Positions 2,383 to 48,627 of a DNA stretch of 55,569 nucleotides are shown piece after piece. Below the pieces are notes generated by a model. The model was not told the DNA's origin. It searched no databases and saw nothing but the letters and a program-made list of their open reading frames with translations. The stretch lies in IMG/VR virus record IMGVR_UViG_3300009068_002792, positions 1 to 55,569 of that record; one strand, given 5' to 3'. Position 1 is the stretch's first letter, and every line of letters begins with the position of its first letter. The DNA comes from a virus. A program made the position numbers and the translations under genes.

Positions 2383-2710
2383 ATCTTATAAATTCTAGCA
2401 GAGTTTTAGGTTTTTTGCAAATGTTTTTATCTTCATTTACTTTATTTTCCTCTAGTTCTACTTTCTCCTTATTTAAATTTAAATTAAAACTTTCATATTC
2501 CTTTAATATAAAAGCTTTGCCCTCTGGTTTAAGAAACCAAGCTAGTGAAGGAGGTGGACTTCCTAACTCTTTCAGATTATCCCAAAAATCAAAAGAATTA
2601 AATCTTTTAACTAATCTTTGGGCGATTTTAATCTCTCTTGCCCAATTAATATTTCCTTTAACAAATTTTTTAACTACTAATTGACAAAGTTTATGGTTTA
2701 CTGTTTTCAA
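2366..2710 (-). CDS. Conserved-looking small protein of unknown function
   Basis: This 114-residue protein is basic at the N-terminus and has a charged, Asn/Glu/Lys-rich middle. I do not recognise a family. The first 60 residues (NWAREIKIAQRLVKRFNSFDFWDNL) resemble a small helical DNA-linked phage module, but that is only an impression. It overlaps the GDP-mannose dehydratase gene upstream by 20 bases and recA downstream by 17 bases, so it bridges the glycan and recombination blocks in one transcript. Confidence 0.6.
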   Translation of the reverse strand: MKTVNHKLCQLVVKKFVKGNINWAREIKIAQRLVKRFNSFDFWDNLKELGSPPPSLAWFLKPEGKAFILKEYESFNLNLNKEKVELEENKVNEDKNICKKPKTLLEFIRYGKKT

Positions 2711-3836
2711 TATCCCATCTTACCATTTTTTCAACCAGCTTGTCAAATGAAATTTTTGGTGACCATCCTAATTCTGTTCTTGCTTTATTTGAGTCTCCAA
2801 GAAGAAGCTCTACTTCTGCTGGTCTATAAAATTTTGGATTTATCTGAACAAGAACTTTACTATCATCAGAAATATACATAACATGTTCATTTTCACCAAT
2901 CCATTTACCATTAATTCCAGCGATAGTAAATGCCTTTTCAACAAACTCCTTAATTGTGTGAGTTTCATTTGAAGAGAAAACGTATTCTTGTGGTGTGCCA
3001 CTATAGTTTTTATTATAGTGGTCTTGATTAAGCATCATCCATACGCCTTCTACAAAATCTTCTGCATCACTCCAATCTCTTTTTGCTTCGATATTTCCTA
3101 ATTCTAAAGGAGTGAATTCTTCATGATTTTTAATTGAATTAAAAATTCGAGCTACATTTTTTGTTACTTTTCTGGTAACAAACTCTTCTCCTCGTCTTGT
3201 GCCTTCATGATTAAATAACCATCCTTGGATTGCGTATAAATTATAAGAATCTCTATAAACTTTAATAAGTTGTCTTGAAGCGGCTTTGCTTGCCCCATAT
3301 GGGCTTCTTGGTCTTAATGGATGCTTTTCGTCTTGTGGTGCATAAAGAATATTTCCAAATTCTTCGCTTGAACCAGCTTGATATAAACGACAAGAAGGTT
3401 TGTAAAGTCTAATAGCTTCTAGAATATCTAAAACACTCGTAGAGTTAGCTGCCCAAGTTTGTCTAGCAAAATCCCAACTACTTGCAACAAAACTTTGTGC
3501 AGCAAAATTAATAAAATAATCTGGTTGTATTTTTTCTACTGTTCTAGATATGGCATGAGGGTCAGTTAAATCAAAGTTAATCAAATGAAATCTATCAGAA
3601 TTAATATGCTTAATGTTTTCATGATTATAAACGCTTAATCTTCTGACTCCACCAAAAATAAGATAATCAGTATTCTTAAGCAAAAAGTCTACCATATGAC
3701 TACCATCTTGACCAGTAACTCCTGTAATAACTACGGTTTTTCTTCCATTAATTAATTTACTTGCATCTTCAATATTTAAAATATTCGCTGTATCTATCTT
3801 TTTCCCATGATAAGTTTCTTGAAAATTTTTACTCAT
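2691..3836 (-). CDS. gmd: GDP-mannose 4,6-dehydratase
   Basis: This short-chain dehydrogenase/reductase converts GDP-D-mannose to GDP-4-keto-6-deoxy-D-mannose, the branch point to GDP-fucose, rhamnose, perosamine and colitose. The Rossmann motif GVTGQDG is at residues 39-45 and the catalytic Tyr-X3-Lys is Y180-GAS-K184. The GSSEEFG segment and DWSDAEDFVEGVW are characteristic of the GMD family. At 381 residues it carries an N-terminal extension of about 30 residues not usual in GMD. It is followed at 9 bases' distance by the RmlB-like gene in transcription order. Host GDP-mannose is presumably the substrate, since no mannose pyrophosphorylase is visible. Confidence 0.9.
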   Translation of the reverse strand: MSKNFQETYHGKKIDTANILNIEDASKLINGRKTVVITGVTGQDGSHMVDFLLKNTDYLIFGGVRRLSVYNHENIKHINSDRFHLINFDLTDPHAISRTVEKIQPDYFINFAAQSFVASSWDFARQTWAANSTSVLDILEAIRLYKPSCRLYQAGSSEEFGNILYAPQDEKHPLRPRSPYGASKAASRQLIKVYRDSYNLYAIQGWLFNHEGTRRGEEFVTRKVTKNVARIFNSIKNHEEFTPLELGNIEAKRDWSDAEDFVEGVWMMLNQDHYNKNYSGTPQEYVFSSNETHTIKEFVEKAFTIAGINGKWIGENEHVMYISDDSKVLVQINPKFYRPAEVELLLGDSNKARTELGWSPKISFDKLVEKMVRWDIENSKP

Positions 3837-3844
3837 ATTATATA

Positions 3845-4819
3845 TTATGATCTATTTTTATAAAATTCAACAGTTTGTTTTAAACCTTCGCTAAAAGAAG
3901 TTTTAGGATGCCAATTTAATTCTTGAGTTATTTTTGCATTATCTATAGCATATCTAAAATCGTGTCCTTTGCGATCTTCTACAAAAGATATATAATCTTG
4001 AGGATTAACATTTAATACTTGGCAAATATCATTAATAATTTCTAGGTTTGTTTTTTCGCAATTTCCACCTACATTATAAGTTTCTCCAATTTTACCATTA
4101 TTTAATACAAACCATACTGCTTCACAATGATCCTCAACAAAAATCCAATCTCTTATATTTTTTCCGTTGCCATAAACAGGTATTTTTTTATTATTTAATA
4201 TAGAGTTTATAACAACTGGTATAAACTTTTCATTATGTTGATTTGGTCCATAATTATTCGAGCAGTTTGAGATAGTGACTAAAGCTTTAAAAGTATGATT
4301 ATAAGCTCTAACTAGCATATCACTAGCGGCTTTTGATGCTGAGTATGGTGAATTTGGAGCATAAGCTGTTGTTTCTGTAAACTTGCCTTCTTCGCCTAAA
4401 CTGCCATAAACTTCATCAGTCGAAACATGATGAAATCTAATTTCTGGAAAATCTCTAATAATTTCTAATAGATTAAATGTACCAAGTATATTAGATTGAA
4501 TAAATCGCCTTGGATCAGATATTGAGTTATCAACATGAGATTCGGCCGCAAAATGAACTATATGAGTTATATTGTATTCTTTTATTATTTGTTTGAATTG
4601 ATCTTTAATAGAAGGATTATCTAACATTTCTAACCAGAAATCATAAAATTTATACTTTGGATTATCTTCAAAATCTTCTGCATTGTTTGTGTTTGATGCC
4701 GAATGTTGTTTTGTTATTGTATCTATGTTTACGACAATATTTATTTCTTTTTTATTAATTATATATTTAATAAAATTAGAACCAATAAACCCAAGTCCAC
4801 CAGTTACAAGTATATTCAT
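3845..4819 (-). CDS. NDP-glucose 4,6-dehydratase, RmlB-like
   Basis: This 324-residue extended SDR starts with the Rossmann motif TGGLGFIGSNF. It has the RmlB-type active-site stretches STDEVYGSLGE and PYSASKAASDMLVRAY, with Tyr-X3-Lys, plus NYGPNQHNEKFIP. RmlB converts dTDP-glucose to dTDP-4-keto-6-deoxyglucose. No RmlA, RmlC or RmlD is present, so either host dTDP-glucose is tapped or another nucleotide-glucose is used. It overlaps the next gene upstream by 4 bases (ATGA). The family is certain; the exact nucleotide sugar is not. Confidence 0.85.
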   Translation of the reverse strand: MNILVTGGLGFIGSNFIKYIINKKEINIVVNIDTITKQHSASNTNNAEDFEDNPKYKFYDFWLEMLDNPSIKDQFKQIIKEYNITHIVHFAAESHVDNSISDPRRFIQSNILGTFNLLEIIRDFPEIRFHHVSTDEVYGSLGEEGKFTETTAYAPNSPYSASKAASDMLVRAYNHTFKALVTISNCSNNYGPNQHNEKFIPVVINSILNNKKIPVYGNGKNIRDWIFVEDHCEAVWFVLNNGKIGETYNVGGNCEKTNLEIINDICQVLNVNPQDYISFVEDRKGHDFRYAIDNAKITQELNWHPKTSFSEGLKQTVEFYKNRS

Positions 4820-6387: not shown

Positions 6388-7692
6388 TTAATTCTGATAT
6401 TGCTGTAAAACTTTTTCTATATAATCAATATTTTTATCTGAAATTGTTGGCGCACATCCAACGAAGAATACTAAATCAAGAACTTTATTGGATTCTGGAT
6501 ATAGTTTATAATCATCTAAGTGCTTGTATCCATTATGCATTAATAGATTTCCTGCAAAATAATTTCTTGTTTGTATTCCATTTGATTCAAGATAAGAAAC
6601 AAGCTTTTGTTTCTGTTCTTTATTTTTACAAATTAATGGAACTCCAAAAGGAGTCCAATCTGTTTTATTCAAAACTTCTACAGATCGAATATTGTTTACA
6701 TATTTAATAAACAAATTTGAAATCTTTGAGCAATTTGAGCTTCTTGTTTCGCAAATGAAATTTAGTTTTTTAAGTTGCTCTATTCCAATTGCTCCTTGTA
6801 AATCTAGAGGTTTTAAATTGTATCCGATTCTATTGAAAACGTACTTATGGTCTATAATAATTTCTGGAAAATCAGAAAGCCAATTAGAGAATCTCTTACC
6901 GCAAGAACCATTGGCTAGTAAATTACAAGTTCCTACGCAGTAACAATCACGACCCCAAGTACCATAACTTCGAGCTAGTTGAACTATTTCTTCATGATTA
7001 GAAGAAACCATTCCTCCTTCTAATGTGGTAATTTCATGTGCAGGATAAAATGAGCAAGCTGAAGCCTCTGAGTATTCATTTAAATACTTGCCATTCCATT
7101 TAGATCCTAAAGAATCGCAATTATCTAAAAGTAATTTAATATTATTAGCTTCGAGCATATTAATTAATTGATCCATATCTGGTGGATTACCTAATACTGG
7201 AGATAAAAACGTTGCCACTGTTTTACTTGTTATTTTTTCTTTTATTTTATTGATATCATAATTTAATGTATTCCATTCAATATCAACGAATACTGGTTTA
7301 AGATTGTTCTGGATAATAGCTGAAACGGTTGTTGGAAATCCTACCGCTGATACGATAATCTCATCTCCATCTTTCCATTTGTAGTATTCTTTACAAGCTG
7401 CGACTAGTAATAGATTGGCCGAAGAACCAGAATTTGTGAAGAAAGAAGATTTTTGATTTATCGCTTTACTAAATTGCTTTTCAAATTGAGCGCAAACTTC
7501 TCCACTAGATGACCATTTACCAAATAAAAGAGTTTCAATAGCTGCTGCGATTTCATTATCATCAAAATATGCGCCAGAATAATATACTTTATTATCTGGT
7601 GCGTTTAAATTATGACAGAATTTGGGTAATCTACCATGCTCTTCTTGTAGATTATTTATAAAATCTTTAATTTTTTGTCTGTGTTCGCTCAT
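6388..7692 (-). CDS. rfbH: RfbH/E1-type 4-keto-6-deoxy-sugar 3-dehydratase, PMP and [2Fe-2S] dependent
   Basis: This 434-residue member of the DegT/DnrJ fold has His219 (SFYPAHE) where aminotransferases have the PLP-binding Lys. That is the hallmark of 3-dehydratases that use PMP to remove the C3 hydroxyl (E1 of the ascarylose pathway, RfbH, ColD). Cysteines C192, C250, C252 and C256/C264 match the E1 iron-sulfur ligand pattern, with the C192-X57-C250-X-C252 spacing kept. ColD lacks this cluster. The partner reductase (E3) is not in the window, so electrons must come from elsewhere. The product would be a 3,6-dideoxy-4-keto sugar nucleotide. Confidence 0.85.
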   Translation of the reverse strand: MSEHRQKIKDFINNLQEEHGRLPKFCHNLNAPDNKVYYSGAYFDDNEIAAAIETLLFGKWSSSGEVCAQFEKQFSKAINQKSSFFTNSGSSANLLLVAACKEYYKWKDGDEIIVSAVGFPTTVSAIIQNNLKPVFVDIEWNTLNYDINKIKEKITSKTVATFLSPVLGNPPDMDQLINMLEANNIKLLLDNCDSLGSKWNGKYLNEYSEASACSFYPAHEITTLEGGMVSSNHEEIVQLARSYGTWGRDCYCVGTCNLLANGSCGKRFSNWLSDFPEIIIDHKYVFNRIGYNLKPLDLQGAIGIEQLKKLNFICETRSSNCSKISNLFIKYVNNIRSVEVLNKTDWTPFGVPLICKNKEQKQKLVSYLESNGIQTRNYFAGNLLMHNGYKHLDDYKLYPESNKVLDLVFFVGCAPTISDKNIDYIEKVLQQYQN

Positions 7693-13883: not shown

Positions 13884-14332
13884 ATTTTTCTTAAGAATTT
13901 TGCTGGTGATCCAACCCATACTTCATTATATGGAACATCTGTTGTTACTAATGAATTTGCGCCAATGATAGAGTTTTCGCCTATTGTAACATTACCCATG
14001 ATGGTTGAGCCTGTACCTATACTTACATTATCTCTAATGGTAATTTTTTCTACTACCCAATTTTCATTATTAACTTTTGGTAAGTTATCGTTAATTGTAT
14101 TTACGTTATGTCCAATAAAAACATTTTTACCAATATCAACTCCTTCACAAATAAAACTATGGCTTTGAATTCTTGAGTTCTCTCCAATTGTGACATTCTT
14201 TTGTACTTCTACGAATGGACCAATAAACACATTATCTTTTAATTCACATCCATAAATATTTGTAAAAGGTGAAATTTTTACATTTTTACCTAGTTTTATA
14301 TTTTTTAAAACTTTTAAAAAGAATTTATTCAT
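13880..14332 (-). CDS. Left-handed beta-helix acyltransferase (WbpD/FdtC-like)
   Basis: This protein of about 150 residues is built of hexapeptide repeats (NVTIGENS, VDIGKNVFIG, NVSIGTGSTIMGNVTIGENSIIGANS), which fold as a left-handed beta-helix trimer. It ends VGSPAKFLRKI, as sugar N-acetyltransferases do. The HNVNTIND segment carries the likely active-site His-Asn loop. An ATG at 14332 overlaps the upstream dehydrogenase by 8 bases and is preferred to one at 14353. It probably acetylates the amino sugar made by the DegT enzyme at 9354, using acetyl-CoA. Confidence 0.8.
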   Translation of the reverse strand: MNKFFLKVLKNIKLGKNVKISPFTNIYGCELKDNVFIGPFVEVQKNVTIGENSRIQSHSFICEGVDIGKNVFIGHNVNTINDNLPKVNNENWVVEKITIRDNVSIGTGSTIMGNVTIGENSIIGANSLVTTDVPYNEVWVGSPAKFLRKI

Positions 14333-15278
14333 TGACGCTAATATATTCTCCATTGTTTTTGATGGATTGACTAATTTTTTCTAAAACTTTAACAGTCCAA
14401 ACTCCTTCATTTGCGCCACTTAAAGTATTTTTATTTTGTTTGATTGATTCAAAGAAGTGGTTAATTTCTAAATATAATGGGTCAATAAGTTGTTGAGGCT
14501 CATAACTTCTTGGTGTTTGGTTGGGTCTTTCAATTATAAGCTTTGCATCTGGTAAAGCTGAATCATTATGCACAATTCCTAATGTCCCATTTAGGGCAAT
14601 TTTTCTAACTTTATTATGATTAAGAAAGCTAACGTCGATATAAGCTGTAAAGTCATTAGAATAGAATAATGTGGCTCTAGCTTTTTCTATTACATTTTTA
14701 TTTATTTGATTAGAGCCAGTAGCAGAAACTCCTTGAAGAACATATTTGCTTGGTACAATATAATTTAATATGCTAATATCGTGAGTCATTAAATCCCAAA
14801 CTACATCTATATCTTTTTTGAATGGGCCCCAATTTGCCCTAGTTGATTCAAAGTTAGTTATTTTACCTATAAAATCAAAATTAATTACTTGTTTAAGGAA
14901 ATTAACCTCTGGAGTATAGATAAAGGTGTTATCTGTATGTAGGATTTTATTATTGCTTTCTGCTGTTTTCTTTAAATTTAAAGCATCGCTATAAGCCAAT
15001 GTTATTGGTTTCTCTACGAATACATGCTTATTATTCTTAAGAGCTTGGTCTGCTAATTCAAAATGAGTGTGAGGTGGTGTTATAACAAATACTGCATCAA
15101 TATTTGGGTCAGCTATACTTTCATTTAAATTATTAGTAATAGATATATTTTGATTAATTAATTCATCAAGTATCTTTGTATTAGTATCAAAGACCTTGAT
15201 ATTAATATCATTGAACTTCTTAAGTGTGTTTAATATTTTAGCGCCCCAAAATCCTGCGCCAACTAATAATACGTTCAT
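14325..15278 (-). CDS. Gfo/Idh/MocA-family sugar dehydrogenase (WbpB/WlbA-like)
   Basis: This 317-residue NAD(P)-dependent oxidoreductase starts MNVLLVGAGFWGAKIL, has DAVFVITPPHTHFELADQAL and the diagnostic NNKHVFVEKPITL with the E-K-P motif, and the DLMTHDISIL helix. WbpB and WlbA oxidise C3 of a UDP-N-acetylglucosaminuronate to a 3-keto sugar for transamination by WbpE and acetylation by WbpD, and all three types are encoded here. The gene order dehydrogenase-acyltransferase supports the same pathway. The substrate is inferred. Confidence 0.8.
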   Translation of the reverse strand: MNVLLVGAGFWGAKILNTLKKFNDINIKVFDTNTKILDELINQNISITNNLNESIADPNIDAVFVITPPHTHFELADQALKNNKHVFVEKPITLAYSDALNLKKTAESNNKILHTDNTFIYTPEVNFLKQVINFDFIGKITNFESTRANWGPFKKDIDVVWDLMTHDISILNYIVPSKYVLQGVSATGSNQINKNVIEKARATLFYSNDFTAYIDVSFLNHNKVRKIALNGTLGIVHNDSALPDAKLIIERPNQTPRSYEPQQLIDPLYLEINHFFESIKQNKNTLSGANEGVWTVKVLEKISQSIKNNGEYISVNE

Positions 15279-18827: not shown

Positions 18828-19432
18828 TTTACTCTTCGAAAGACATGATCTACGTCTAATTGATGAATCTTTTTGTATCCTAAAGATTCTATATAAGGTA
18901 TTGGATTTTGAGCTGTGACTTCCACAACGATAATTGGATTGCATTTTTCAATAGTTTTTTCCGCGCCTTTTAAAGCTTGTTCTTCAAATCCTTCAATATC
19001 TAAATGAATTAACGAGACATTTTTTAAATTTAAATCATCTATTTTTAGTATTGGTATATTTCCTTCTCCGTTTAAAATGTATGCACCGCAATTATCATTT
19101 TCTGATAATACTACTGGATCGCCTCCATTTCCCAAAGCAGATTGGTATCTATATATATTTGGACATTCTAAAGTATTTAAAACTAAACAGTTAAAATTTA
19201 AAATATCTGGTTCAAAGGTATAGACATTTTTAAAATGTTTTGAATACTCTTTAGGATAATAACCAGCATTACCTCCAGCTTGAATTACCGTCTGCTTCTT
19301 CTTGCAAAAATCTGCTATAATACTAGGCGCAGAAAGTCTATCGTTATCATGAAGATAATTCCACATGATTTTATCCTTTTTAGGCCAAAAAAATCCATCT
19401 CTAAATTCGATTTGTTGATTATCAATTTGCAT
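18824..19432 (-). CDS. FkbM-family methyltransferase
   Basis: This 202-residue protein has VIQAGGNAGYYPKEYSKHFKNVYTFEPDILNFNCL, a motif I plus E-P-D pair typical of FkbM methyltransferases, and later LIHLDIEGFEEQALKGAEKTI followed by CNPIIVVEVT, the family's best conserved block. FkbM enzymes methylate hydroxyl groups of sugars and polyketides. It is joined by 4-base and 11-base overlaps to the flanking genes, so it belongs to the glycan operon. Confidence 0.82.
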   Translation of the reverse strand: MQIDNQQIEFRDGFFWPKKDKIMWNYLHDNDRLSAPSIIADFCKKKQTVIQAGGNAGYYPKEYSKHFKNVYTFEPDILNFNCLVLNTLECPNIYRYQSALGNGGDPVVLSENDNCGAYILNGEGNIPILKIDDLNLKNVSLIHLDIEGFEEQALKGAEKTIEKCNPIIVVEVTAQNPIPYIESLGYKKIHQLDVDHVFRRVK

Positions 19433-20207
19433 TTTTATTTATATATTGTATCATACTCTTTAAGCTATCGTCTAATTTAGTGGAGTTTAAGTTATGAATT
19501 TCTTGGAAATTGCCAATATATGAAGTTAATCCTTGCTGTTCTATGGTAATATTACTATTAGAATTGCAAAGGTTTTTAATTAATTCTGCGATCTGACTTA
19601 ATTTATGCTTTTGGGGATAAACACAATCAATTTCTTGATATTCTTTTGTATCATTTTGGATTAATAATTCAATTAACTGAATCAAATCATCCATATAATA
19701 AATATCAAACTCTATATCTTCCCAAATAATAATATCTTCATTTTTTAAAGCTTTCTTGATTGTGGAGTAAACGAAAGAATCTTCCATTCCTAATTGACCA
19801 AAGACATTGTATATTCTTAAATTTTTAATATTATTTTTTTCTTTAATGATATAAGTGCATATCTTTTTACTTAAACCATAAAAATCATTTTGTTTATAAA
19901 ATTCCGCGCCACTTGAAAATGTTATTAACTTACAATCATCATTAACAAAATTCAACAAATTATCCAAGGAACTTATATTGTTATATAAATCTTCAGATGT
20001 ATCTTTTTTCATTCGTCTACCGCCCTTAACTGCACAATTTATTATCCAATCAAATTTCTTATTTGACATCCAAGATTTTAATTGTTCCAATTCTGTTAGA
20101 TTTAATTCTTCGCTACTTGGAGCATGAATTTCATATTTTTTAGATAACTTATCTAATATACTGCGCCCAACAAAACCATACCCACCAGTTAAAAGAATTT
20201 TTTTCAT
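19422..20207 (-). CDS. NAD-dependent sugar epimerase/reductase (GDP-fucose synthase-like SDR)
   Basis: The start at 20207 (MKKILLTGGYGFVGRSILDKL) gives the 4-base overlap seen elsewhere. The 261-residue protein has GGYGFVG, FDWIINCAVKGGRR, FSSGAEFYKQNDFYGLSKK (catalytic Tyr-X3-Lys), LRIYNVFGQLG and FDIYYMDDLIQLI. Size and short C-terminal half resemble GDP-4-keto-6-deoxymannose reductases/epimerases of the Fcl/Rmd group, which act after GMD. GMD is encoded in this block, so GDP-fucose or GDP-rhamnose formation is possible but unproven. Confidence 0.72.
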   Translation of the reverse strand: MKKILLTGGYGFVGRSILDKLSKKYEIHAPSSEELNLTELEQLKSWMSNKKFDWIINCAVKGGRRMKKDTSEDLYNNISSLDNLLNFVNDDCKLITFSSGAEFYKQNDFYGLSKKICTYIIKEKNNIKNLRIYNVFGQLGMEDSFVYSTIKKALKNEDIIIWEDIEFDIYYMDDLIQLIELLIQNDTKEYQEIDCVYPQKHKLSQIAELIKNLCNSNSNITIEQQGLTSYIGNFQEIHNLNSTKLDDSLKSMIQYINKNAN

Positions 20208-21115
20208 TGTAGCTTTTTGTAAAATTCTATTGTTTTTTCTAGCCCTTGAGAGATGTCTGTTTTTTGCTTCCATCCAATTCTTTGCAATTTATCATTTTCA
20301 CCTTCTAGATTAAAAACAAAATCTTTTGGATATGGTTTATTATATTTAATATTTAATTTAAAATCAACTACTTTTGCTATTTGCTCTACTATATCCTTAA
20401 CCCTTTTGGGATAAGATCCACAGAAATTGTATATTCCTTCGTGTTGGTTTTCAATTAATAGATTGATGCCATCAACAAAATCATCAATAAACAAGTAACT
20501 AGTAAAATGTTCACATGGATTTAATTCTATTTCTTCACTTTTTAAGCATTTATTAATAACTTGTGGAATAAGTCTTTTTTCAAAGTCTTTATCTCCGTAC
20601 AACCAGAATGGTCTTACCCATGTAAATTTAACGCCATGAATCTTGAGCAATTCATTACAGATTTGATAAGCTATATATTTAGCTGATCCATATGCATTGA
20701 TGGGTTTTGGTGTTTGATCTTCTTTTGGTTTGATATCAAAATTTCCATATTCCCAACCAGCTCCAACTCCCACAAAATGTTTAACATTACAATCTTTAGC
20801 GATTTGGATTAAATCAAGCAAACCGGGAATATTCTCTGTAAATTGTTTTTCGTCAGTTAGTAATAATTGACTACTAGAACCATACCATCCACAATAAAAT
20901 ATTACGTCTGGTCTAAAATCTTTAATTTGATTAATATAGTCTTTAATGTTATTGATCTTGCAGTTTATCGTTTCGATCTTATGTATAAAGTCTTTTATTC
21001 TCCATATGTTTTGTGGATTATTAATTGTGCCTAAAACGCTATGTTTTTTATTTAAAAATGATTCGGCTACTTTTGAACCGATAAAACCATTGATTCCTAT
21101 AATTAGTATATTCAT
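20204..21115 (-). CDS. NAD(P)-dependent NDP-sugar epimerase/reductase (SDR)
   Basis: This 303-residue extended SDR has INGFIGSKVAESFL, PDVIFYCGWYG, VGVGAGWEYGNFD, NAYGSAKYIAYQIC (Tyr-X3-Lys), WVRPFWLYGDKDFEKRLIPQVINKC and TSYLFIDDFVDGI. It is probably a reductase of a 4-keto sugar nucleotide (Rmd- or RmlD-like role). It follows the aldolase gene with a one-base gap. Together with the ThDP cassette just upstream in transcription it could finish a branched or 6-deoxy sugar. Confidence 0.75.
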   Translation of the reverse strand: MNILIIGINGFIGSKVAESFLNKKHSVLGTINNPQNIWRIKDFIHKIETINCKINNIKDYINQIKDFRPDVIFYCGWYGSSSQLLLTDEKQFTENIPGLLDLIQIAKDCNVKHFVGVGAGWEYGNFDIKPKEDQTPKPINAYGSAKYIAYQICNELLKIHGVKFTWVRPFWLYGDKDFEKRLIPQVINKCLKSEEIELNPCEHFTSYLFIDDFVDGINLLIENQHEGIYNFCGSYPKRVKDIVEQIAKVVDFKLNIKYNKPYPKDFVFNLEGENDKLQRIGWKQKTDISQGLEKTIEFYKKLQ

Positions 21116-21116
21116 A

Positions 21117-22121
21117 TTATTTTTTATTTGCTAAGTTTTGAGCAGCTTCTATGATTAAATCTTCTTGAACTGCTATGAGTTTTTTATTTTTTAATTCTTC
21201 AATCAAGTCTATGTAGTTTATATTATAAGTTTTTGCAATCTCAAGAATTGGCTTTTCGAAACCACAGAACAATTTATTTAAACCTGTTAAGATATTGATC
21301 GGAGAAATAGAAGGATTCGTTGGCACTAAATAATCCATCGCTTCATCTGCGCCATTTATAAGTTTTTTGAAATCTATATTTGTGGAGAAATTGTATTTTT
21401 GTAAAACTGGAATTAATACTTCTATTTGAGTATTTCCTGCTCCTGCACCAAATCCTTTAATACAAGCATCAATCATATCTGCCCCATTTTGAACAGCAGT
21501 TATAGAGTTTGCTACAGCTAGTCCAAGATTATTATGTGCATGAAAACCAACTTTTATTGATAAATTATCCTTAAGAGCTTTGATTCTTTCTTCTGTATCT
21601 ATAGTTGTATATGTTCCAGTTGAGTCCATAATGAATATTCCATTAGCTCCATATTCTTGCATCTTCTTTGCTTCTTGAACTAAAGTTTTAGCATCTACTA
21701 AAGCAGTCATCATTAATATACCATAAACATCTTTATTTTTATTTTTAAGATATTCTATGTGAGGTCTTGTAACATTTGCTTCTGTACAATGAGATCCAAC
21801 TCTGAAAATATCTACTCCAATATCAATTGCAGATTCTATATTCTTTTTAATCGTAGCCATTCCGGGGACAATATGTACGGCTAGCTTAGATTTTTTAAGA
21901 TTTTCTCTAGCTGTCTTTAGCATTTGCTCGTCCGAAGTTGGAATTAATCCCATCAATAATGAAGATGCGCCGATCCCTAAACCATGTCCAACTTCTACAG
22001 AATCAATTCCAGCATCATCAGCAAAAGTGCAATATCTTTTAATCTGCTCTAAAGTTATCTTATGCTTTACGAAATGATTACCATCTCTCAAAGAAGAATC
22101 GTTTATAAAGATTTTATTCAT
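21117..22121 (-). CDS. 4-hydroxy-2-oxovalerate aldolase-like protein (DmpG/MhpE family)
   Basis: Start at 22121 (MNKIFINDSSLRDGNHF), giving an 8-base overlap with the upstream dehydrogenase gene. The 334-residue TIM-barrel enzyme shows the family's metal site (SLRDGNH, and GFHAHNNLGLAVANS with the His pair) and the C-terminal communication domain (DEAMDYLVPTNPS). DmpG-type aldolases split 4-hydroxy-2-oxoacids to pyruvate and an aldehyde that is channelled to a DmpF dehydrogenase, whose gene is adjacent here. In a glycan locus it more likely handles a two- or three-carbon unit for sugar branching. The substrate is not known. Confidence 0.85.
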   Translation of the reverse strand: MNKIFINDSSLRDGNHFVKHKITLEQIKRYCTFADDAGIDSVEVGHGLGIGASSLLMGLIPTSDEQMLKTARENLKKSKLAVHIVPGMATIKKNIESAIDIGVDIFRVGSHCTEANVTRPHIEYLKNKNKDVYGILMMTALVDAKTLVQEAKKMQEYGANGIFIMDSTGTYTTIDTEERIKALKDNLSIKVGFHAHNNLGLAVANSITAVQNGADMIDACIKGFGAGAGNTQIEVLIPVLQKYNFSTNIDFKKLINGADEAMDYLVPTNPSISPINILTGLNKLFCGFEKPILEIAKTYNINYIDLIEELKNKKLIAVQEDLIIEAAQNLANKK

Positions 22122-23013
22122 AAATATCCTCAACTTTATCATAGATTGTTTGATTGCTATCAATGTATTTAGCTGCTTCAATTGATGCACAAGTTATAAT
22201 ATCTAAATTGCCAGCGTATGCTGGTAAGTAATCGCCAGTACCAATAACTTTGATTCCTAGTATTAGAATGTTCTCTTTGTTTAACATTGGCTTTAATGTT
22301 AGTTCGTAACCCGGAATTATCTTTTTTAATTTTTGGATTCTGAAATCGAGTAATTTTGCAATATAATTTATATCAATAATCTCGCTATTTATTTTTAAAA
22401 ACATCGTAGTTTGCATGTTAACGCATGGTTCTGCTGGATTTAAGTTTAATATTACTTTCGCTTTCTTACAATTAGTGAATTTTTTAATTGCAGATTCTGT
22501 TGTTTCAACATATTCATCTATATTTAGTCTAGTGGCAATCCCTGCGCTTTTAGAAGCAATTTGAGACACTACTTCTATGTATTCTATATCTGGATAAATA
22601 TTTGATATTAAATTTAAAATTGGAATAGAAGCTTGGCCTCCACAAGTTATCATATTTATGTTAGCTGTATCTTTTAATATGTTTCCATTTATAATTGGAA
22701 CGCACAACTCTCCAATTCTAGATGGTGTCAAATCTATAACTTTTATACCTTGCTCTTTCAGCACTTCATTATTTATAATTGCAGAAAAAGCATTTGTACA
22801 GTCGAAAACAATATCACAATAGTTTTTATTCTTAACAAAAAAATCTATTCCTTCATCAGAAGTATTAATGTTATGTTTTTGAGCTAGTTTTATGCCTTGT
22901 GAATCCTTGTTTCTTCCAGAGAAAATAGATAGCTGTATAAAATTACATTTAAGCATTTTAAGTAATAAATCGCATCCTATATTTCCTGTGCCTATTATAC
23001 CAGCCTTAATCAT
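22114..23013 (-). CDS. Acylating acetaldehyde dehydrogenase-like protein (DmpF/MhpF family)
   Basis: This 299-residue protein has a Rossmann start IGTGNIGCDLLLKML and the thiolate nucleophile in NMITCGGQASIPIL, exactly the DmpF/MhpF motif. VVSQIASKSAGIATRLNIDEY and NPAEPCVNMQTTMF follow as in the family, at the usual length. Such enzymes oxidise the aldehyde released by the partner aldolase to acyl-CoA. The gene overlaps the aldolase gene by 8 bases, the same pairing as in phenol degradation operons, but here the neighbours are sugar genes. Confidence 0.87.
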   Translation of the reverse strand: MIKAGIIGTGNIGCDLLLKMLKCNFIQLSIFSGRNKDSQGIKLAQKHNINTSDEGIDFFVKNKNYCDIVFDCTNAFSAIINNEVLKEQGIKVIDLTPSRIGELCVPIINGNILKDTANINMITCGGQASIPILNLISNIYPDIEYIEVVSQIASKSAGIATRLNIDEYVETTESAIKKFTNCKKAKVILNLNPAEPCVNMQTTMFLKINSEIIDINYIAKLLDFRIQKLKKIIPGYELTLKPMLNKENILILGIKVIGTGDYLPAYAGNLDIITCASIEAAKYIDSNQTIYDKVEDIYE

Positions 23014-23021
23014 ATAATATA

Positions 23022-23774
23022 TTAATCTTTTATAAACTCTTTTTCCATTTCTTCTTTTGATAGGAATGGATGCATATTCGAGAAGTCATTTTGTATATAT
23101 CTTCCAGTTTCATCTTTAGAAGCGGTTATGCTTGGAGAAATATCTTGGATTTCTTTGCATTTAATTTCGCAAATATATGGGTTTGTATCTTTTAATATTG
23201 AATCTATCTCTTGGTCAAAATCTTTTATTGTTTTTATAAGGCAATATTTAATATCATAAGCATTTGCTATTTTATTGATGCTTGGAAAAAAGATACCATC
23301 ATCTCCACAAGTACCAATTCTTCTGCCTTCATAGAATTTATCTTGGCTATTTTTAATGCTTAGATATCCATTGTTATTCAAGATGAATATCTTAATTGGT
23401 AAATTATGTTTTTTTATTACAGCTAGAGCTTGAGGATTAGTATTGAAACTTCCATCACCTTGAATTACTATAGTTTGTTTTTTGTTTCTTGCGAAGCAAA
23501 CTCCAGAAGCTATACCAAGTGCTGCGCCCATTTCTCCTTGAGATAAGGAGCAAATAATTTTTTGACCTTTCTTTGGTTTGAACCCTTGATTGCAAATATA
23601 AAAAGCTGAACCAGCATCAGTAATAATTGGTTCGTCTTCATTTAAATTGTAATTCATGATCTCTATCACTTTATATAGATCAATACCATTAGAATCATCG
23701 TTATATGATTCTTGGAAAACTGGCCAACTCTTTTTCCAATGTTGGCATTTTTTAATCCATGATTCTTTATTCAT
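23022..23774 (-). CDS. Thiamine diphosphate enzyme, C-terminal (ThDP-binding) half
   Basis: This 250-residue protein carries the ThDP motif GDGSF (106-110) to NNN (133-135), preceded by ITDAGSAFYICNQG and SLSQGEMGAALGIASG. This is the PP domain of acetolactate synthase-like enzymes. It lacks the N-terminal pyrimidine domain, which is encoded by the overlapping upstream gene. The first 30 residues (KKCQHWKKSWPVFQ) look like the linker that normally joins middle and C-terminal domains. The two halves should assemble as one enzyme. Confidence 0.85.
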   Translation of the reverse strand: MNKESWIKKCQHWKKSWPVFQESYNDDSNGIDLYKVIEIMNYNLNEDEPIITDAGSAFYICNQGFKPKKGQKIICSLSQGEMGAALGIASGVCFARNKKQTIVIQGDGSFNTNPQALAVIKKHNLPIKIFILNNNGYLSIKNSQDKFYEGRRIGTCGDDGIFFPSINKIANAYDIKYCLIKTIKDFDQEIDSILKDTNPYICEIKCKEIQDISPSITASKDETGRYIQNDFSNMHPFLSKEEMEKEFIKD

Positions 23775-24798
23775 TGATATGCTCTAAAAAATTATTTAAA
23801 TCAGACTCTATAAACAAATCGATGTTAATAATATTTTTTCTATGATTTTCTGAATCTATGTCTACAACTATCTTCTTTGCATTTTTTGCAAACTTTTCAC
23901 TTATGTATCCAACTTGAGGAGTATTCAAGCAACATCCTAAACAAATTATTCCATCTGCATTTTGAATAGCAAAATTTCCAGCTCTATCACCTTTTACTCC
24001 AATAATTCCGATTCTTAATGGATGATTGTATTCTAATATATCTGCTCCTCCATATGTAAAAACACAAGGGATTTTATACTTTTGAATAAATTTTTTAAAT
24101 TCATTTTCTGTGTTAGAAAGTTTGATTCCATTTCCTCCAAGAACAATTGGTCGTTTGAATTTCTTTAACATATTCTTAAATTTTGAGATTTGAGAATTAT
24201 TCTTTTTGGGGGTTTTCTTTTTTTGATACTTAATCAAATTTGATTGTTTAATAAATGTTGCGCCAATATCCGCTGGAATATCAATCCATACTGGGCCAAA
24301 TGGAGCAGTTAAGGCTATATCAATTGCTTTGTCTAATTCATGTTCAATTAGTTCGGGATTATCAATTGTTACTGCGTACTTTGTAATTGGCTTTACCATC
24401 TCAATAATATCTGCTTCTTGTGCTCCTAGCTTTTTTAAATTTATCTTTTCTTTCGTTTTAAAGTATCTAGTTGTTTGTTTTAAAGCTACGTTACCAGAAA
24501 GAAATAGAATTGGGGTGTGATCTTGAAACGCTGATAGTAGTGGAGTTAAAACATTAAAACTCGCGCAACCTGTAGTTGGATTACATACTGATATTTTATT
24601 ACTATATTTAGAATAACCAAGACAAAAGTATCCAGCATCTTGTTCGTGATGAACGCAGATTGGTTTTATGTTTTTATTTTTAGCTAAAGCATCATTTAAT
24701 ACCAATGCTCCGTTGCCAGTTATTAAAGATATATATTTGACTTTATACTTTTCATATAATCTATTTATTACAAATTCAGATACTCGAATATCTTTCAT
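23767..24798 (-). CDS. Thiamine diphosphate enzyme, N-terminal and middle domains (acetolactate synthase-like)
   Basis: This 343-residue protein starts MKDIRVSEFVINRLYEKYKV and has the catalytic glutamate E52 in VHHEQDAGYF, then NPTTGCASFNVLTPLLSAFQDHTPILFLSG. These are signatures of the pyrimidine domain of acetolactate synthase-type enzymes. The middle domain follows (RPIVLGGNGIKLS). It ends where a normal enzyme continues into the PP domain, which is the next gene, overlapping by 8 bases. YerE-type relatives add a two-carbon acetyl unit from pyruvate to a 4-keto-3,6-dideoxy sugar. Confidence 0.85.
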   Translation of the reverse strand: MKDIRVSEFVINRLYEKYKVKYISLITGNGALVLNDALAKNKNIKPICVHHEQDAGYFCLGYSKYSNKISVCNPTTGCASFNVLTPLLSAFQDHTPILFLSGNVALKQTTRYFKTKEKINLKKLGAQEADIIEMVKPITKYAVTIDNPELIEHELDKAIDIALTAPFGPVWIDIPADIGATFIKQSNLIKYQKKKTPKKNNSQISKFKNMLKKFKRPIVLGGNGIKLSNTENEFKKFIQKYKIPCVFTYGGADILEYNHPLRIGIIGVKGDRAGNFAIQNADGIICLGCCLNTPQVGYISEKFAKNAKKIVVDIDSENHRKNIINIDLFIESDLNNFLEHINE

Positions 24799-26598: not shown

Positions 26599-27216
26599 TT
26601 ACAAGTTTTTTATTACTGTGACATTGGTATTACCTTTAAAAGTTAACCCAGTTCCAGCCGTCCAAGTATCACTAACTGGTCCAGAAGTAGGCACTCGGAT
26701 GGTTAATGTCTCGGCAGTTAAAAGAAATATGTTGGTCCCAACAAAAGCTGATTGTGGAACATAACAAAGAACTGTGGATAGAACGGAGGACTCTTTGAAC
26801 GCATTGTTCCCAATGCTGTTCACGCTATTTGGGATAGTTATGCTGGTTAGGCCGTAGGAAAGGCCGAACGCAGCATTCCCAATACTCGTTACGCTGTTAC
26901 CAATAGTTAAACTGGATAGGTCATAGCAACCATAGAATGCACCAAGCCCAATACTCGTTACGCTATTAGGTATAATGATACTGGTTAGATTGATGCAAAA
27001 CTCAAAAGCCGAGGCTCCAATACTCGTCACGCTGTTATCATTTGCAAAGATAACAGAAGCAACGGAGGTTTGAGAAGATAACCAATTAGAAGGTATATCC
27101 CCTGTATTTGTTGAGCCAACTTGGACACCAGAAGAATTGAAAGCTCTTGAGGTGGTAATGAGCTGGGGCGTTCTTGGAATTTTGAATGTTGTATTTTTTT
27201 TAATTATTAAGCTCAT
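26599..27216 (-). CDS. BspA-type leucine-rich repeat surface protein
   Basis: This 205-residue protein has an N-terminal module (MSLIIKKNTTFKIP) and then about four 23-residue LRR_5 repeats of the form SVTSIGxxAFxxCxxLTSIxIPN. BspA-like repeats form extended solenoids in surface adhesins and phage host-recognition proteins. The repeats are close to one another at DNA level, suggesting recent expansion. The N-terminal I-K-K module is similar to that of the next gene, hinting that both dock to the same virion or surface partner. Confidence 0.75.
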   Translation of the reverse strand: MSLIIKKNTTFKIPRTPQLITTSRAFNSSGVQVGSTNTGDIPSNWLSSQTSVASVIFANDNSVTSIGASAFEFCINLTSIIIPNSVTSIGLGAFYGCYDLSSLTIGNSVTSIGNAAFGLSYGLTSITIPNSVNSIGNNAFKESSVLSTVLCYVPQSAFVGTNIFLLTAETLTIRVPTSGPVSDTWTAGTGLTFKGNTNVTVIKNL

Positions 27217-28573: not shown

Positions 28574-28815
28574 TTTTGGACTTGACCAGATGCGGTTTGT
28601 ATATCTAAATTATTTTTAGTTTGTTTGGCCACAATTGATCCTATCATAGTTAATACTAAAATGCAAGCAAAAAGTAATCCATAATGAGTTTTTTCTTGGG
28701 CTTTCTTTTTGACTCTATATTGATGAAAATTACTTATAAAGTCTTCTGTATCCCTTTTGGATGGAAGATTTCTTTCATAATTATTCAATAATAAGTTTCT
28801 CAATTGATTATCCAT
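28570..28815 (-). CDS. Small protein with a C-terminal transmembrane helix
   Basis: Start at 28815 (MDNQLRNLLLNNYERN), overlapping the PEP-CTERM gene by 8 bases. The 81-residue product has an N-terminal helical, charged part and one hydrophobic helix (LLFACILVLTMIGSIV), then a short polar tail. Its arrangement resembles anti-sigma-factor-like or small anchor proteins, but no conserved motif supports that. It is co-oriented and translationally coupled to the PEP-CTERM gene. Confidence 0.55.
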   Translation of the reverse strand: MDNQLRNLLLNNYERNLPSKRDTEDFISNFHQYRVKKKAQEKTHYGLLFACILVLTMIGSIVAKQTKNNLDIQTASGQVQK

Positions 28816-30835
28816 TTCTTTTAGATATTCTACGACAAGCAAGTAAAGAAATCAAACCAATTCCAAATAATTGTATCGCAGATGGTTCTGGAACATTATC
28901 AACAACGCTAACTATTCCATCTGTTGCAAATGAACTAGTATTCCAACTTAAATCACTTGAATTTAAAGTTGGTAATGCAACTTGTAATTTTGTTATATCA
29001 AAATTTGTAGCATCAATACTTCCAAAATTAAATAGATCATATGAATCTCCACTAGAGAAATTATAAGTATCTAATACTTCAAATGTAAAGTTTGTACTTG
29101 CTCCAAGAGTTAATAAATTAGTAACATTGATGGCATCATAGGTAACTCCTCTTGTAGTGGGCGCGCCTATTTGGAATGCAAATGTTCCATTACTTCCATT
29201 TAAATCATAAGCGGTAAGCAGACCCGGACTATTGCCCGGAGCCACAATACCACCATTTAAAGTCAAGCCTTGTACGCTACCAGAGCCACCTAATGTACCT
29301 CCTGTATTTACTATAACATCTCCTGCGCGTCCATTTACGGAAAGTAAACTTCCATTAATTGTGGTACTTCCAATGGTGCCACCTAAATTTACTGTAGCTG
29401 TTCCAGCATTAACTATAGTTGTTCCAGCTGTACCAGAAACTAATAGAGTGCCACCTCCAACTGTTGTAGATCCAACTGTACCACCATTATCTACAAGTAA
29501 ATTTCCGCTATTTAGAGTTACTCCACCTGCAACTCCTTTGACTTGAAGAGTTCCTCCAGAAACTATAGCAGAACTTGATAATATAGAACCAGTTGTATTA
29601 ACTAGTAATTTTCCTTCTTGCACTGTTGTATCTCCATTATAAGAATTAACTCCTTCTAGAGTTACTGTTCCTAATCCTGTTTTTGTAAGCCCTCTGATTG
29701 CGGAACCAGTATTAAGCAAAGATCCTTTAAATAAGAAATCTCCAACACCTCCAACAACATTATAATCTGCTGTAGTAGATCCAACATCTAATGTGCCATC
29801 AAATTGCACTAGTAAGTTTGTGCTATTGTTGAACATTCTTCTACCACCACTATTACCAGTAGATACAGTTAATGTATTAGCAGAATTAGTAAATTGAAGC
29901 AATGTTTTACCTCCGCCATGATTCGTAAAATTCATATTATTACCTTGATACTGATTCATGATAAAAGTAGTAACAGCATCAGGATTTGATCCTAACAAAT
30001 CTAGCGTTCCCATCGTAGATAAACTAGTTGATCCCTTCAAACTACTAAGAGTAGATAAACCATTTGCAGTATTAATTTTTAATATAGGTACATTTGTTGT
30101 TCCACTTGCTCCACCTAATGTTACCAATCCTTGTCCAACACCAGTTCCACCATTTACATTAACAGTGCCACTTCCTGTTATATCAAAACCACCTCCACCA
30201 GAACCTCCAATTACGTTTGTACCATTAAATGTAATACTGCCATTACCTGTATAAATTACTTTAGCAGCAGGAGCTAAACTTGTACCATTGTTTATAAGAT
30301 TATTATTAAATATATATGCACCATCTCCAGCAAGAGTAAGAGTCCTAGAAGTACTAGATGCATCTGTGGTTAATCCTACTTGTTGATTAAACGTAAGACC
30401 TCCACCAGCAGCAGTAAACCAAGTATAATTACCACCGCTGTTATTAACTCGTAAATTAAAAGTTTGTATAGATGATGAAGCGTTAGTGATTCCGCCAGAT
30501 GCTATTTCAAGTAACTTACTGCTTGCAGTTGTAAATGTATAAGCATTTGCTCCACTAAAAAACTCAAGTTTTTGAGCTGTTCTTGTAGAAGTTAAATCTA
30601 CAGTATTAAAATTTGCACCATAGTTACTAAACTGAACAACATCTGTACCAGTTGTAGTGGTAGAGGTTGGTTGAGCGTTATTTGTCCAGCTAGTTGGAGA
30701 TGTCCATTGCGTGCCAGTATTATTCCATAAGAAATTTACTGCTTGTGATTCTTGGACGGCTCCAGACATTAAAAAAGCCGCAATTAATTTTGCGGCTGTG
30801 CTTCTTAGTAACCCTTTTAGTAGGTTTATTTTCAT
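28808..30835 (-). CDS. PEP-CTERM surface protein with autotransporter-associated beta-strand repeat
   Basis: This 675-residue secreted protein starts with a signal peptide (MKINLLKGLLRSTAAKLIAAF, processing near QESQA). It continues as a Gly/Ser/Thr/Asn-rich beta-solenoid and includes one clear PATR repeat (LTKTGLGTVTLEGVNSYNGD, then TTVQEGKLLVN). It ends with VPEPSAIQLFGIGLISLLACRRISKRNG-type features: V-P-E-P, a hydrophobic helix and a basic tail, which is the PEP-CTERM exosortase signal. No beta-barrel domain is present. Exosortase substrates of this build are frequent in Verrucomicrobiota. No exosortase is in this window, so the host's enzyme would have to process it. Confidence 0.88.
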   Translation of the reverse strand: MKINLLKGLLRSTAAKLIAAFLMSGAVQESQAVNFLWNNTGTQWTSPTSWTNNAQPTSTTTTGTDVVQFSNYGANFNTVDLTSTRTAQKLEFFSGANAYTFTTASSKLLEIASGGITNASSSIQTFNLRVNNSGGNYTWFTAAGGGLTFNQQVGLTTDASSTSRTLTLAGDGAYIFNNNLINNGTSLAPAAKVIYTGNGSITFNGTNVIGGSGGGGFDITGSGTVNVNGGTGVGQGLVTLGGASGTTNVPILKINTANGLSTLSSLKGSTSLSTMGTLDLLGSNPDAVTTFIMNQYQGNNMNFTNHGGGKTLLQFTNSANTLTVSTGNSGGRRMFNNSTNLLVQFDGTLDVGSTTADYNVVGGVGDFLFKGSLLNTGSAIRGLTKTGLGTVTLEGVNSYNGDTTVQEGKLLVNTTGSILSSSAIVSGGTLQVKGVAGGVTLNSGNLLVDNGGTVGSTTVGGGTLLVSGTAGTTIVNAGTATVNLGGTIGSTTINGSLLSVNGRAGDVIVNTGGTLGGSGSVQGLTLNGGIVAPGNSPGLLTAYDLNGSNGTFAFQIGAPTTRGVTYDAINVTNLLTLGASTNFTFEVLDTYNFSSGDSYDLFNFGSIDATNFDITKLQVALPTLNSSDLSWNTSSFATDGIVSVVDNVPEPSAIQLFGIGLISLLACRRISKRNG

Positions 30836-33920: not shown

Positions 33921-34346
33921 TTAGCGCTGGATTATTCTAGCGTTTTCAACCCTAGCTCTTAGTTCACTTGATGAAAATACATGCTTTCTTTTATGGTAGT
34001 GTATTTCAATGCCGTTGTCTAAGCAGTATTGCTTTGCTGTAAATTCTTTATTAATATATTCTTCGCTCAAGAATCTGATGTCTATTTTTTGAGTTTTAAT
34101 TAATTGTTCGAGATCATATTCAGTATTATATAATAAAATTTCATCAACATACTTACAAGCCTGTAATTGAACATATCTTTCGTAAACGCTTTGAACTGGT
34201 TTATTCTTAACATCTGGCCTATCAATTGTTGGATCAATTTGTAATCCTACTTTCAAGTAATCGCATAAATCTTTTTCCATTCTTAACATTGTGACATGGC
34301 CAGCATGAAACAAATCGAAGCTACTGCAATTAAAACCTATTTTCAT
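33921..34346 (-). CDS. Cytidylyltransferase (TagD/RfaE-type nucleotidyltransferase)
   Basis: This 141-residue protein has the HxGH-type motif FDLFHAGHVTML near the start and the C-terminal SSSELR motif, both catalytic in the cytidylyltransferase family. TagD makes CDP-glycerol from glycerol 3-phosphate; other members make CDP-alcohols or ADP-heptose. Length matches the family. It lies among glycosyltransferase genes, so it probably activates a polyol or sugar phosphate for transfer. The substrate is undetermined. Confidence 0.8.
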   Translation of the reverse strand: MKIGFNCSSFDLFHAGHVTMLRMEKDLCDYLKVGLQIDPTIDRPDVKNKPVQSVYERYVQLQACKYVDEILLYNTEYDLEQLIKTQKIDIRFLSEEYINKEFTAKQYCLDNGIEIHYHKRKHVFSSSELRARVENARIIQR

Positions 34347-35599: not shown

Positions 35600-35989
35600 T
35601 GGACCCGGAAGGAGTTGAACCTTCGTGTTTTAAAAATCTAAATTAAAATACTACAAGTTTAGTTCTTTTTGTTTTTTAGCTTTGTATAGATATAAGAACA
35701 AACATACTCAGCGTATTCTATCTTGAATATTATTACTTAAAGAACAGAAAAACTATTAAATAATAAACATCTAATTACGCAATATTCCAGTAGATGCGTC
35801 GTGGATATCACGCTGTAGAACTTAGGCTACAGAAGCGGTCATCTCAACAAGAGAAACTCTTGCAGAAATATGACCTTTATATTTTGCTGTTTTGGCAGTT
35901 AATATAAATGAAACTTTTTTAGGAGTCCTCGATTCAACCTCCACTTGCATTTTAATTTATTTTCTTAAAATCGAAACCAGTACGGGCCA
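35600..35989 (-). ncRNA. ssrA: Transfer-messenger RNA (tmRNA), with an unusually long tag
   Basis: Reading the minus strand, the 5' end UGGCCCG pairs with the 3' CGGGUCC (one end mismatch) and is followed by the CUGG...UUCGA block typical of tmRNA. The T-arm is GAAGG-UUCAACU-CCUUC. The tag frame ends TAA at 35822-35824. A start at 35887 gives 21 residues (AKYKGHISARVSLVEMTASVA) and one at 35896 gives 24. A CTGTAG/CTACAG hairpin encloses the stop, as in tmRNA helix 5. No CCA is encoded. It would rescue stalled ribosomes and tag products for proteolysis. Confidence 0.85.
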
Positions 35990-48363: not shown

Positions 48364-48627
48364 ATGGAAGAAAATACACAAAATACATCAAATACAGAAG
48401 ATAAGAGAATTGTATTACCAAATAATTCGTATGCCAGAGCAACTCCATTTTCTCCAGTAGTAAGAGTATTACCTAAAATATCAAGAAACTCTTATTGTCC
48501 ACTTAATAATGTTAAATTTAAAAAGTGCTGTGGCGCATCTGGACAAGATTATTGCACAAAGGCTAAAGAAAATCTAGAGAATTATGTCAATGATTTGAGA
48601 ACGAAAGATAATGATAAAAGCAGTTGA
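48364..48627 (+). CDS. Small protein with a SEC-C-like zinc motif
   Basis: This 87-residue protein has a polar N-terminus and CPLNNVKFKKCCGASGQDYC at residues 41-60, a variant of the SEC-C zinc motif (CxCxxxxxxKxCC) found in SecA tails and phage proteins. The spacing is similar but the first C-x-C is reduced to one Cys. It overlaps the next gene by 17 bases. A zinc-dependent protein-binding role is inferred. Confidence 0.6.
   Translation: MEENTQNTSNTEDKRIVLPNNSYARATPFSPVVRVLPKISRNSYCPLNNVKFKKCCGASGQDYCTKAKENLENYVNDLRTKDNDKSS

Follow-up and report, generated by a model that had tools for sequence, protein, structure and literature searches.

The window analysed here is the whole of the viral record IMGVR_UViG_3300009068_002792 (55,569 nucleotides), in which a glycosyltransferase-rich block holds many sugar genes and, among them, the four intact, co-directional minus-strand genes that are the subject of this report. 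In the order of transcription, they encode the N-terminal and middle (N+M) half of a thiamine diphosphate (ThDP) enzyme, its C-terminal (C) half, an MhpF-like protein and an MhpE-like protein (Table 1). An initial annotation, made from the sequence alone, had placed the four genes correctly and had suggested that they belong to a new, phage-carried route to a branched sugar. Carriage by a phage is borne out by the T4-type genes of the record, which include UvsX, a gp55-like sigma factor, deoxynucleoside monophosphate (dNMP) kinase, endonuclease VII and ribonucleotide reductase (RNR); no structural genes were identified among the window proteins tested.

A carboligase encoded by two overlapping genes

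The catalytic glutamate is residue 52 of the N+M half (in CVHHEQ), and the ThDP-binding motif GDG...NN lies in the C half. In alignment, the glutamate is present in essentially all relatives and the ThDP-binding motif is likewise conserved. The two genes overlap by 8 nucleotides (ATGAATAA), the start codon of the C half overlapping the stop codon of the N+M half. In the frame of the C half, a TAG lies four codons upstream of the ATG, so that an insertion or deletion could fuse the halves only within approximately 20 nucleotides, a stretch that is free of long homopolymers. An identical split is found in five other viral contigs (L027, L032, L035, L143 and L144), with overlaps of 4–14 nucleotides and proteins 37–48% identical to those of the window, and these contigs and the window form a single clade (Shimodaira–Hasegawa (SH)-like support 100; bootstrap/SH-approximate likelihood-ratio test (SH-aLRT) 100/99 in a further tree). 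The sisters of this clade (L028-L031), also viral, have fused ThDP genes, and the approximately 70 full ThDP genes of bacterial loci are, every one, single genes. The overlapping frames, the nearby stop and the occurrence of the split in five other contigs of one clade rule out a sequencing frameshift; the split is real and inherited.

Other viral YerE-like enzymes are cut elsewhere, with the Pyr domain apart from the M-C part (L095, L096, L097 and L206), and one is divided over three genes of 175, 169 and 179 residues (L103:3163-4728). Splits can come from decay, and those of L095, L103 and L206, in the same viral family, could be taken to mean that the ThDP pieces of the window are broken or are not one enzyme, and that the cassette is non-functional. 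The frames are nevertheless open, all motifs are kept, and the split is shared by phages whose proteins are only 37–48% identical, all of which makes decay extremely improbable.

The enzyme had been described as acetolactate synthase-like and, at the same time, as a member of the YerE family. The split, E52 and GDG-NN are upheld by the Pfam matches and the overlap, and so is the place in the YerE family, but the enzyme is closer to JanthE than to acetolactate synthases. Among solved structures, 8RPH (JanthE) is the best match of both halves, with 158.7 bits against 119.6 for the next, an acetolactate synthase, in the N+M half (a margin of 39 bits), and 128.9 against 61.8 for the next in the C half (67 bits). 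JanthE is a YerE-like, ketone-accepting carboligase (PMC12188165). In a more careful tree, the split clade groups with MhpF/E-linked enzymes, including that of the bacterial locus L267 (99/97), to which the halves are only 32–33% identical. The top NCBIfam models for the halves are acetolactate synthases, with scores far below cut-off, and tblastn searches of phage and plasmid records with the halves mostly matched acetolactate synthases as well. An acetolactate synthase is rejected on the structure matches and the trees; as far as sequence comparison can tell, the split genes are the two halves of one YerE-family carboligase, for which ketone carboligation is predicted.

MhpF and MhpE beside the carboligase

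The reading of the next two genes as an overlapping MhpF-like and MhpE-like pair is confirmed by curated models, with 310.5 bits for TIGR03215 (cut-off 282.25) and 320.9 bits for TIGR03217 (cut-off 286), respectively. By Pfam, the former protein carries the AcetDehyd-dimer domain and the latter the DmpG_comm (communication) domain, and PDB searches match them to acetaldehyde dehydrogenases and aldolases. The MhpE-like protein has 334 residues counted from a conserved Met. With the listed GTG as its start it is longer by 23 residues, which lie outside the family match; the true start is probably at 22121, so that the overlap with the MhpF-like gene is short.

Scores above these catabolic equivalog cut-offs, together with acetolactate synthases as the top, if distant, models of the ThDP halves, would also suit ordinary catabolism or amino-acid metabolism, with MhpE and MhpF degrading 4-hydroxy-2-oxovalerate to acetyl-CoA and an acetolactate synthase as the ThDP enzyme. 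This is very unlikely in view of the lead of JanthE over acetolactate synthases (39 and 67 bits in the two halves), the glycosyltransferase-rich surroundings, and the position of the window MhpF/E in the tree, apart from three catabolic-type pairs of plasmids. In addition, no hydratase or ring-cleavage dioxygenase was matched in the window or related loci, which speaks against a catabolic meta-cleavage operon. A tblastn search with MhpF among phage records gave one match, of bacterial type. Viral homologues accompanied by a YerE-like ThDP gene are up to 64% identical to the window MhpF, and viral homologues of the window MhpE reach 67%.

The gene set was sought in other genomes and found in both viruses and bacteria. 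Viral scans with single window proteins gave no matches, exact back-translated peptides being too strict, and alignments of distant relatives succeeded, fetching 80 (ThDP-C), 50 (MhpF) and 55 (MhpE) loci. A YerE-like ThDP gene is held by 50 of the 50 viral MhpF loci (one cut by a contig end), a share which is not an unbiased frequency, as the scan patterns came from sugar-type alignments and several loci are near-duplicates. Their commonest order is ThDP-MhpF-MhpE-SDR, the last being a short-chain dehydrogenase/reductase (SDR). MhpF and MhpE are both present with 55 of the 120 unique viral ThDP genes collected; within approximately 20 kb, 28 of these 55 loci have an RfbH homologue (at least 35%), and a gene related to the second SDR gene of the window occurs in 39. 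Relatives of the first SDR gene hold the same position in several viral loci, e.g., L140, L107 and L125.

In bacteria, RfbH, a YerE-like ThDP enzyme, MhpF and MhpE occur together in six clusters (L010, L011, L021, L264, L266 and L267). The most complete, L267, consists of RfbI, RfbF, RfbG, RfbH, an HpaI-like aldolase, ThDP, SDR, MhpF, MhpE and SDR, as named by sequence inspection and local BLAST. The HpaI-like aldolase (L267:7320-8102) lies between RfbH and ThDP, so that this cluster, with MhpE, has two aldolases. In the window, the putatively donor-building MhpF and MhpE adjoin the carboligase, in an order shared with most viral loci, L010, L011 and L267. A near-identical JanthE orthologue stands directly upstream of MhpF and MhpE, beside RfbG and RfbH (L010:8942-12730), and because of this neighbourhood 4-hydroxy-2-oxopentanoate is predicted to be the natural donor of JanthE.

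The tree of the ThDP genes disagrees with that of MhpF/E, in that split ThDP genes stand beside MhpF/E of two separate lineages, one in the window and the other in L143 and L144. The window MhpF/E fall in a viral clade (100) in which the remaining members adjoin fused ThDP genes, mostly with a CDG motif, while L143 and L144, which are split too, carry MhpF/E of the clade on the JanthE side. Because of this conflict, the carboligase and MhpF/E appear to have been combined more than once, and such repeated pairing favours a functional link. The aldolase and dehydrogenase had been suggested as a possible means to supply or remove two-carbon units; as they accompany the carboligase in viral loci, without ring-cleavage partners, it is more likely that they build its donor.

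A predicted route to a ten-carbon branched sugar

We consider the block, with a probability of about three in four, to be the core of an erwiniose-type C-branched sugar pathway with a four-carbon donor made by MhpF and MhpE. From the genes we infer a direction of reaction, a donor, an acceptor, a product and a use in the phage, as follows. An RmlB-like 4,6-dehydratase, or one like GDP-mannose 4,6-dehydratase (GMD), would give a nucleoside diphosphate (NDP)-4-keto-6-deoxyhexose, and the RfbH-type enzyme would remove its C3 oxygen. MhpF would convert acetyl-CoA to acetaldehyde, which MhpE, in the condensing direction, would join to pyruvate to yield 4-hydroxy-2-oxopentanoate. In DmpFG chemistry, MhpE-type condensation does give this acid from pyruvate and acetaldehyde, and acetyl-CoA can serve MhpF-type enzymes as the source of acetaldehyde. 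The products of the two ThDP genes would assemble as one YerE/ErwE-like enzyme, decarboxylate the acid and attach the C4 (3-hydroxybutanoyl) carbanion to the sugar at its C4 ketone, creating a tertiary alcohol. One or both adjacent SDR proteins would then reduce the side-chain ketone to an erwiniose-like C10 sugar, which phage glycosyltransferases may put onto a surface glycan.

Erwiniose is 3,6,8-trideoxy-4-C-(1-hydroxyethyl)-gulo-octose, a structure which may be viewed as a 3,6-dideoxyhexose that bears a 1,3-dihydroxybutyl group at C4, the product expected after the reduction. Loss of CO2 from 4-hydroxy-2-oxopentanoate leaves four carbons, and C6 plus C4 gives C10, so that the donor fits erwiniose, a ten-carbon sugar (PMC8657720). 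ErwE of Pectobacterium atrosepticum is reported to make erwiniose from a hydroxy-functionalised 2-oxo acid and CDP-4-keto-3,6-dideoxyglucose; it prefers 4-hydroxy-2-oxobutanoate, -pentanoate or -hexanoate and uses neither pyruvate nor acetaldehyde (PMC12247030). Gene linkage and this published specificity together support the donor step.

The branched sugar of the initial annotation, with its RfbH-type enzyme, is thus retained, while its two-carbon unit from pyruvate probably gives way to a four-carbon unit of erwiniose type. In a yersiniose-type pathway, the split enzyme would add an acetyl group from pyruvate, and MhpF and MhpE would only adjust the pools of acetaldehyde, acetyl-CoA and pyruvate. 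YerE, the founding member of the family, does take pyruvate (PMC12247030), and the split relatives L027 and L035 are without MhpF/E in the fetched stretch. However, a pyruvate-using YerE requires neither MhpF nor MhpE, yet viral loci pair both with YerE-like ThDP genes, and the preference of ErwE for hydroxylated longer acids over pyruvate (PMC12247030) points the same way; transfer of a two-carbon unit is therefore quite unlikely.

The RfbH-type 3-dehydratase, which had also been recognised in the block, has His at the position of the pyridoxal phosphate (PLP)-binding lysine (SFYPAH) and the cluster motif CxC...C (as CYC...C). Several points weigh against an erwiniose-type pathway. The RfbH-like protein scores below the NCBIfam RfbH cut-off (344.5 vs 423 bits), its gene lies approximately 15 kb downstream of the ThDP genes, though in the same co-directional block, and no electron donor for it was found in the window. 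From the CDP-3,6-dideoxy-4-ketohexose set of RfbF, RfbG, RfbH and RfbI, only RfbH has a clear relative in the window; there is no relative of RfbF or RfbI there, and an RfbG query gave only distant matches, the GMD-like and RmlB-like genes. The acceptor nucleotide is consequently uncertain, and the pathway is better said to work like erwiniose synthesis than to be it. Moreover, MhpF/E are absent from the fetched stretch in three close relatives with split genes (L027, L032 and L035), so that the split clade has no fixed link to the MhpE product. The species of L267 is itself inferred, as Pectobacterium-like, which fits the five pectate lyases of its genome, three of them in tandem; the bias of the viral scans also belongs here. 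In L032, where MhpF/E are absent, a class I/II aminotransferase (L032:7825-8994) lies between RfbH and the split ThDP genes and is possibly another supply of 2-oxo acid.

The distance of RfbH, the many further sugar genes of the block and the lack in the window of the CDP-glucose genes of bacterial clusters would also agree with the same C4 donor being joined to another keto sugar, such as a 3-keto sugar from the Gfo/Idh/MocA protein, with a product that is not erwiniose-like. This is unlikely, since RfbH homologues recur with the ThDP family in viruses and bacteria, and the acceptors known for YerE/ErwE are 4-keto-3,6-dideoxy sugars (PMC12247030).

Within an erwiniose-type pathway, the sugar nucleotide may have changed. 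RfbF and RfbG relatives gave 12 matches each in bacterial loci, as opposed to 2 (RfbF) and 3 (RfbG, one weak) in viral loci. An RmlB-like gene is found within approximately 20 kb in 44 of the 55 viral MhpF/E loci vs 1 of 24 bacterial ones, and directly adjoins the ThDP gene in several viral loci; its best model is dTDP-glucose 4,6-dehydratase, above cut-off in the window and below it in four tested loci. With RfbF and RfbG nearly absent and RmlB-like genes common, the phages may work on dTDP- or GDP-sugars, or depend on host enzymes. We suggest, more tentatively and as a possibility rather than an expectation, that aquatic T4-like phages have repeatedly carried and reshuffled an erwiniose-type cassette, rebuilt on dTDP- or GDP-sugars with a two-subunit carboligase, making a C10 sugar for their particles or the host surface. 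If true, viruses would have their own class of higher-carbon sugar biosynthesis, in which the acceptor differs from that of bacteria.

The claim of a new route needs to be narrowed, as ErwE has already been reported with such donors (PMC12247030); phage carriage, the split gene and a dTDP-glucose-type dehydratase in place of CDP-glucose genes are apparently undescribed. No description of YerE-type enzymes in phages was found in a literature search that left most subscription papers, including the YerE survey, outside its scope, nor was one of the erwiniose gene cluster found. Few pathways to long-branched (C10–C12) bacterial sugars have been studied, and gene content by itself seldom reveals where the carboligase obtains its donor. 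With MhpF and MhpE linked to the carboligase, a donor that can be put to the test is now proposed for a large set of enzymes, JanthE among them. The linkage also points to the carriage of such cassettes, apparently with sugar-nucleotide genes exchanged, by many environmental phages. In addition, natural two-part carboligases may serve as tools for chiral tertiary alcohols.

Table 1. Genes of the sugar block, with predicted functions and their basis
Predicted product	Position	Strand	Basis
N+M (Pyr + central domain) half of YerE/ErwE/JanthE-like ThDP carboligase	23767..24798	-	343 aa; Pfam TPP_enzyme_N, TPP_enzyme_M; 8RPH match; trees
C (ThDP-binding) half of ThDP carboligase	23022..23774	-	250 aa; Pfam TPP_enzyme_C; GDG...NN; 8RPH match
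MhpF/DmpF-like acylating acetaldehyde dehydrogenase	22114..23013	-	299 aa; TIGR03215; AcetDehyd-dimer
MhpE/DmpG-like 4-hydroxy-2-oxovalerate aldolase	21117..22121	-	334 aa; TIGR03217; DmpG_comm
First SDR-family protein, directly after MhpE; candidate ketoreductase for transferred acyl group	20204..21115	-	Epimerase Pfam
Second SDR-family protein; candidate reductase/epimerase	19422..20273	-	Pfam; likely start inside open reading frame
Gfo/Idh/MocA protein; possible 3-keto sugar source under another acceptor	14325-15278		
RfbH/E1-type NDP-4-keto-6-deoxyhexose 3-dehydratase	6388..7692	-	PRK15407 344.5 bits (below cut-off); motifs
RmlB-type dTDP-glucose 4,6-dehydratase; candidate 4-keto-6-deoxy sugar source	3845..4819	-	TIGR01181 427.4 bits, cut-off 365.1
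GMD-like protein; alternative 4-keto-6-deoxy sugar source	2691..3836	-	TIGR01472 325.3 bits, below 415 cut-off

Elsewhere in the window, a BspA-type leucine-rich-repeat protein (26599-27216, minus strand) is encoded near the sugar block, and a heptose-1-phosphate adenylyltransferase-like protein (33921-34346, minus strand; PHROG 7878) outside its main part. A secreted beta-strand-repeat protein of 675 residues (28808-30835, minus strand) has a PATR repeat and ends in a PEP-CTERM-like tail, and may offer a clue to the host group. The phage also encodes a transfer-messenger RNA (35600-35989, minus strand) with a tag ending in SVA, an inosine monophosphate dehydrogenase/GMP-reductase-like gene (44512-45609, plus strand) and a PurA-like adenylosuccinate synthetase (48611-49597, plus strand). 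PHROGs names a PurZ-type family for the last, but a PurZ/Z-genome reading was dropped, as the canonical WGDEGKGK motif is kept and PurA models were matched.

Comparison with known systems

The ErwE/erwiniose pathway of P. atrosepticum, of which L267 is the likely cluster, shares with the window a YerE-like carboligase, MhpF, MhpE, RfbH and reductases in one cluster, as well as a hydroxylated 2-oxo acid donor leading to a C10 branched sugar, donor and product being predictions for the phage. Judging from L267, MhpF and MhpE would be defining genes of the ErwE pathway. The window differs in being phage-borne, in having the carboligase in two genes and RmlB-like and GMD-like genes in place of RfbG, and in that RfbF and RfbI were not found in it. 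JanthE (PDB 8RPH, from Janthinobacterium) is the top solved match of both halves, and its orthologue in L010 stands beside MhpF/MhpE; it is, however, a single chain with a CDG motif, in contrast to the GDG of the window enzyme, which sits on a different branch of the tree.

YerE of Yersinia pseudotuberculosis, from the yersiniose A pathway, has in common with the window its family, an RfbH-type partner and a ketone acceptor (predicted for the phage), and differs in transferring a two-carbon unit from pyruvate. To our knowledge, there is no MhpF/MhpE step in the YerE pathway. The DmpG/DmpF, BphI/BphJ and MhpE/MhpF pairs of aromatic meta-cleavage belong to the same aldolase and acylating dehydrogenase families and share the communication domain, but they have other neighbours and fall in another clade, and the window pair probably runs in the condensing direction. 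Finally, split-gene transketolases are found in Streptomyces pathways to branched-sugar antibiotics, where a two-gene ThDP enzyme has been proposed to act on a keto sugar (PMC12247030); these are two-gene ThDP enzymes like that of the window, but from a different ThDP superfamily.

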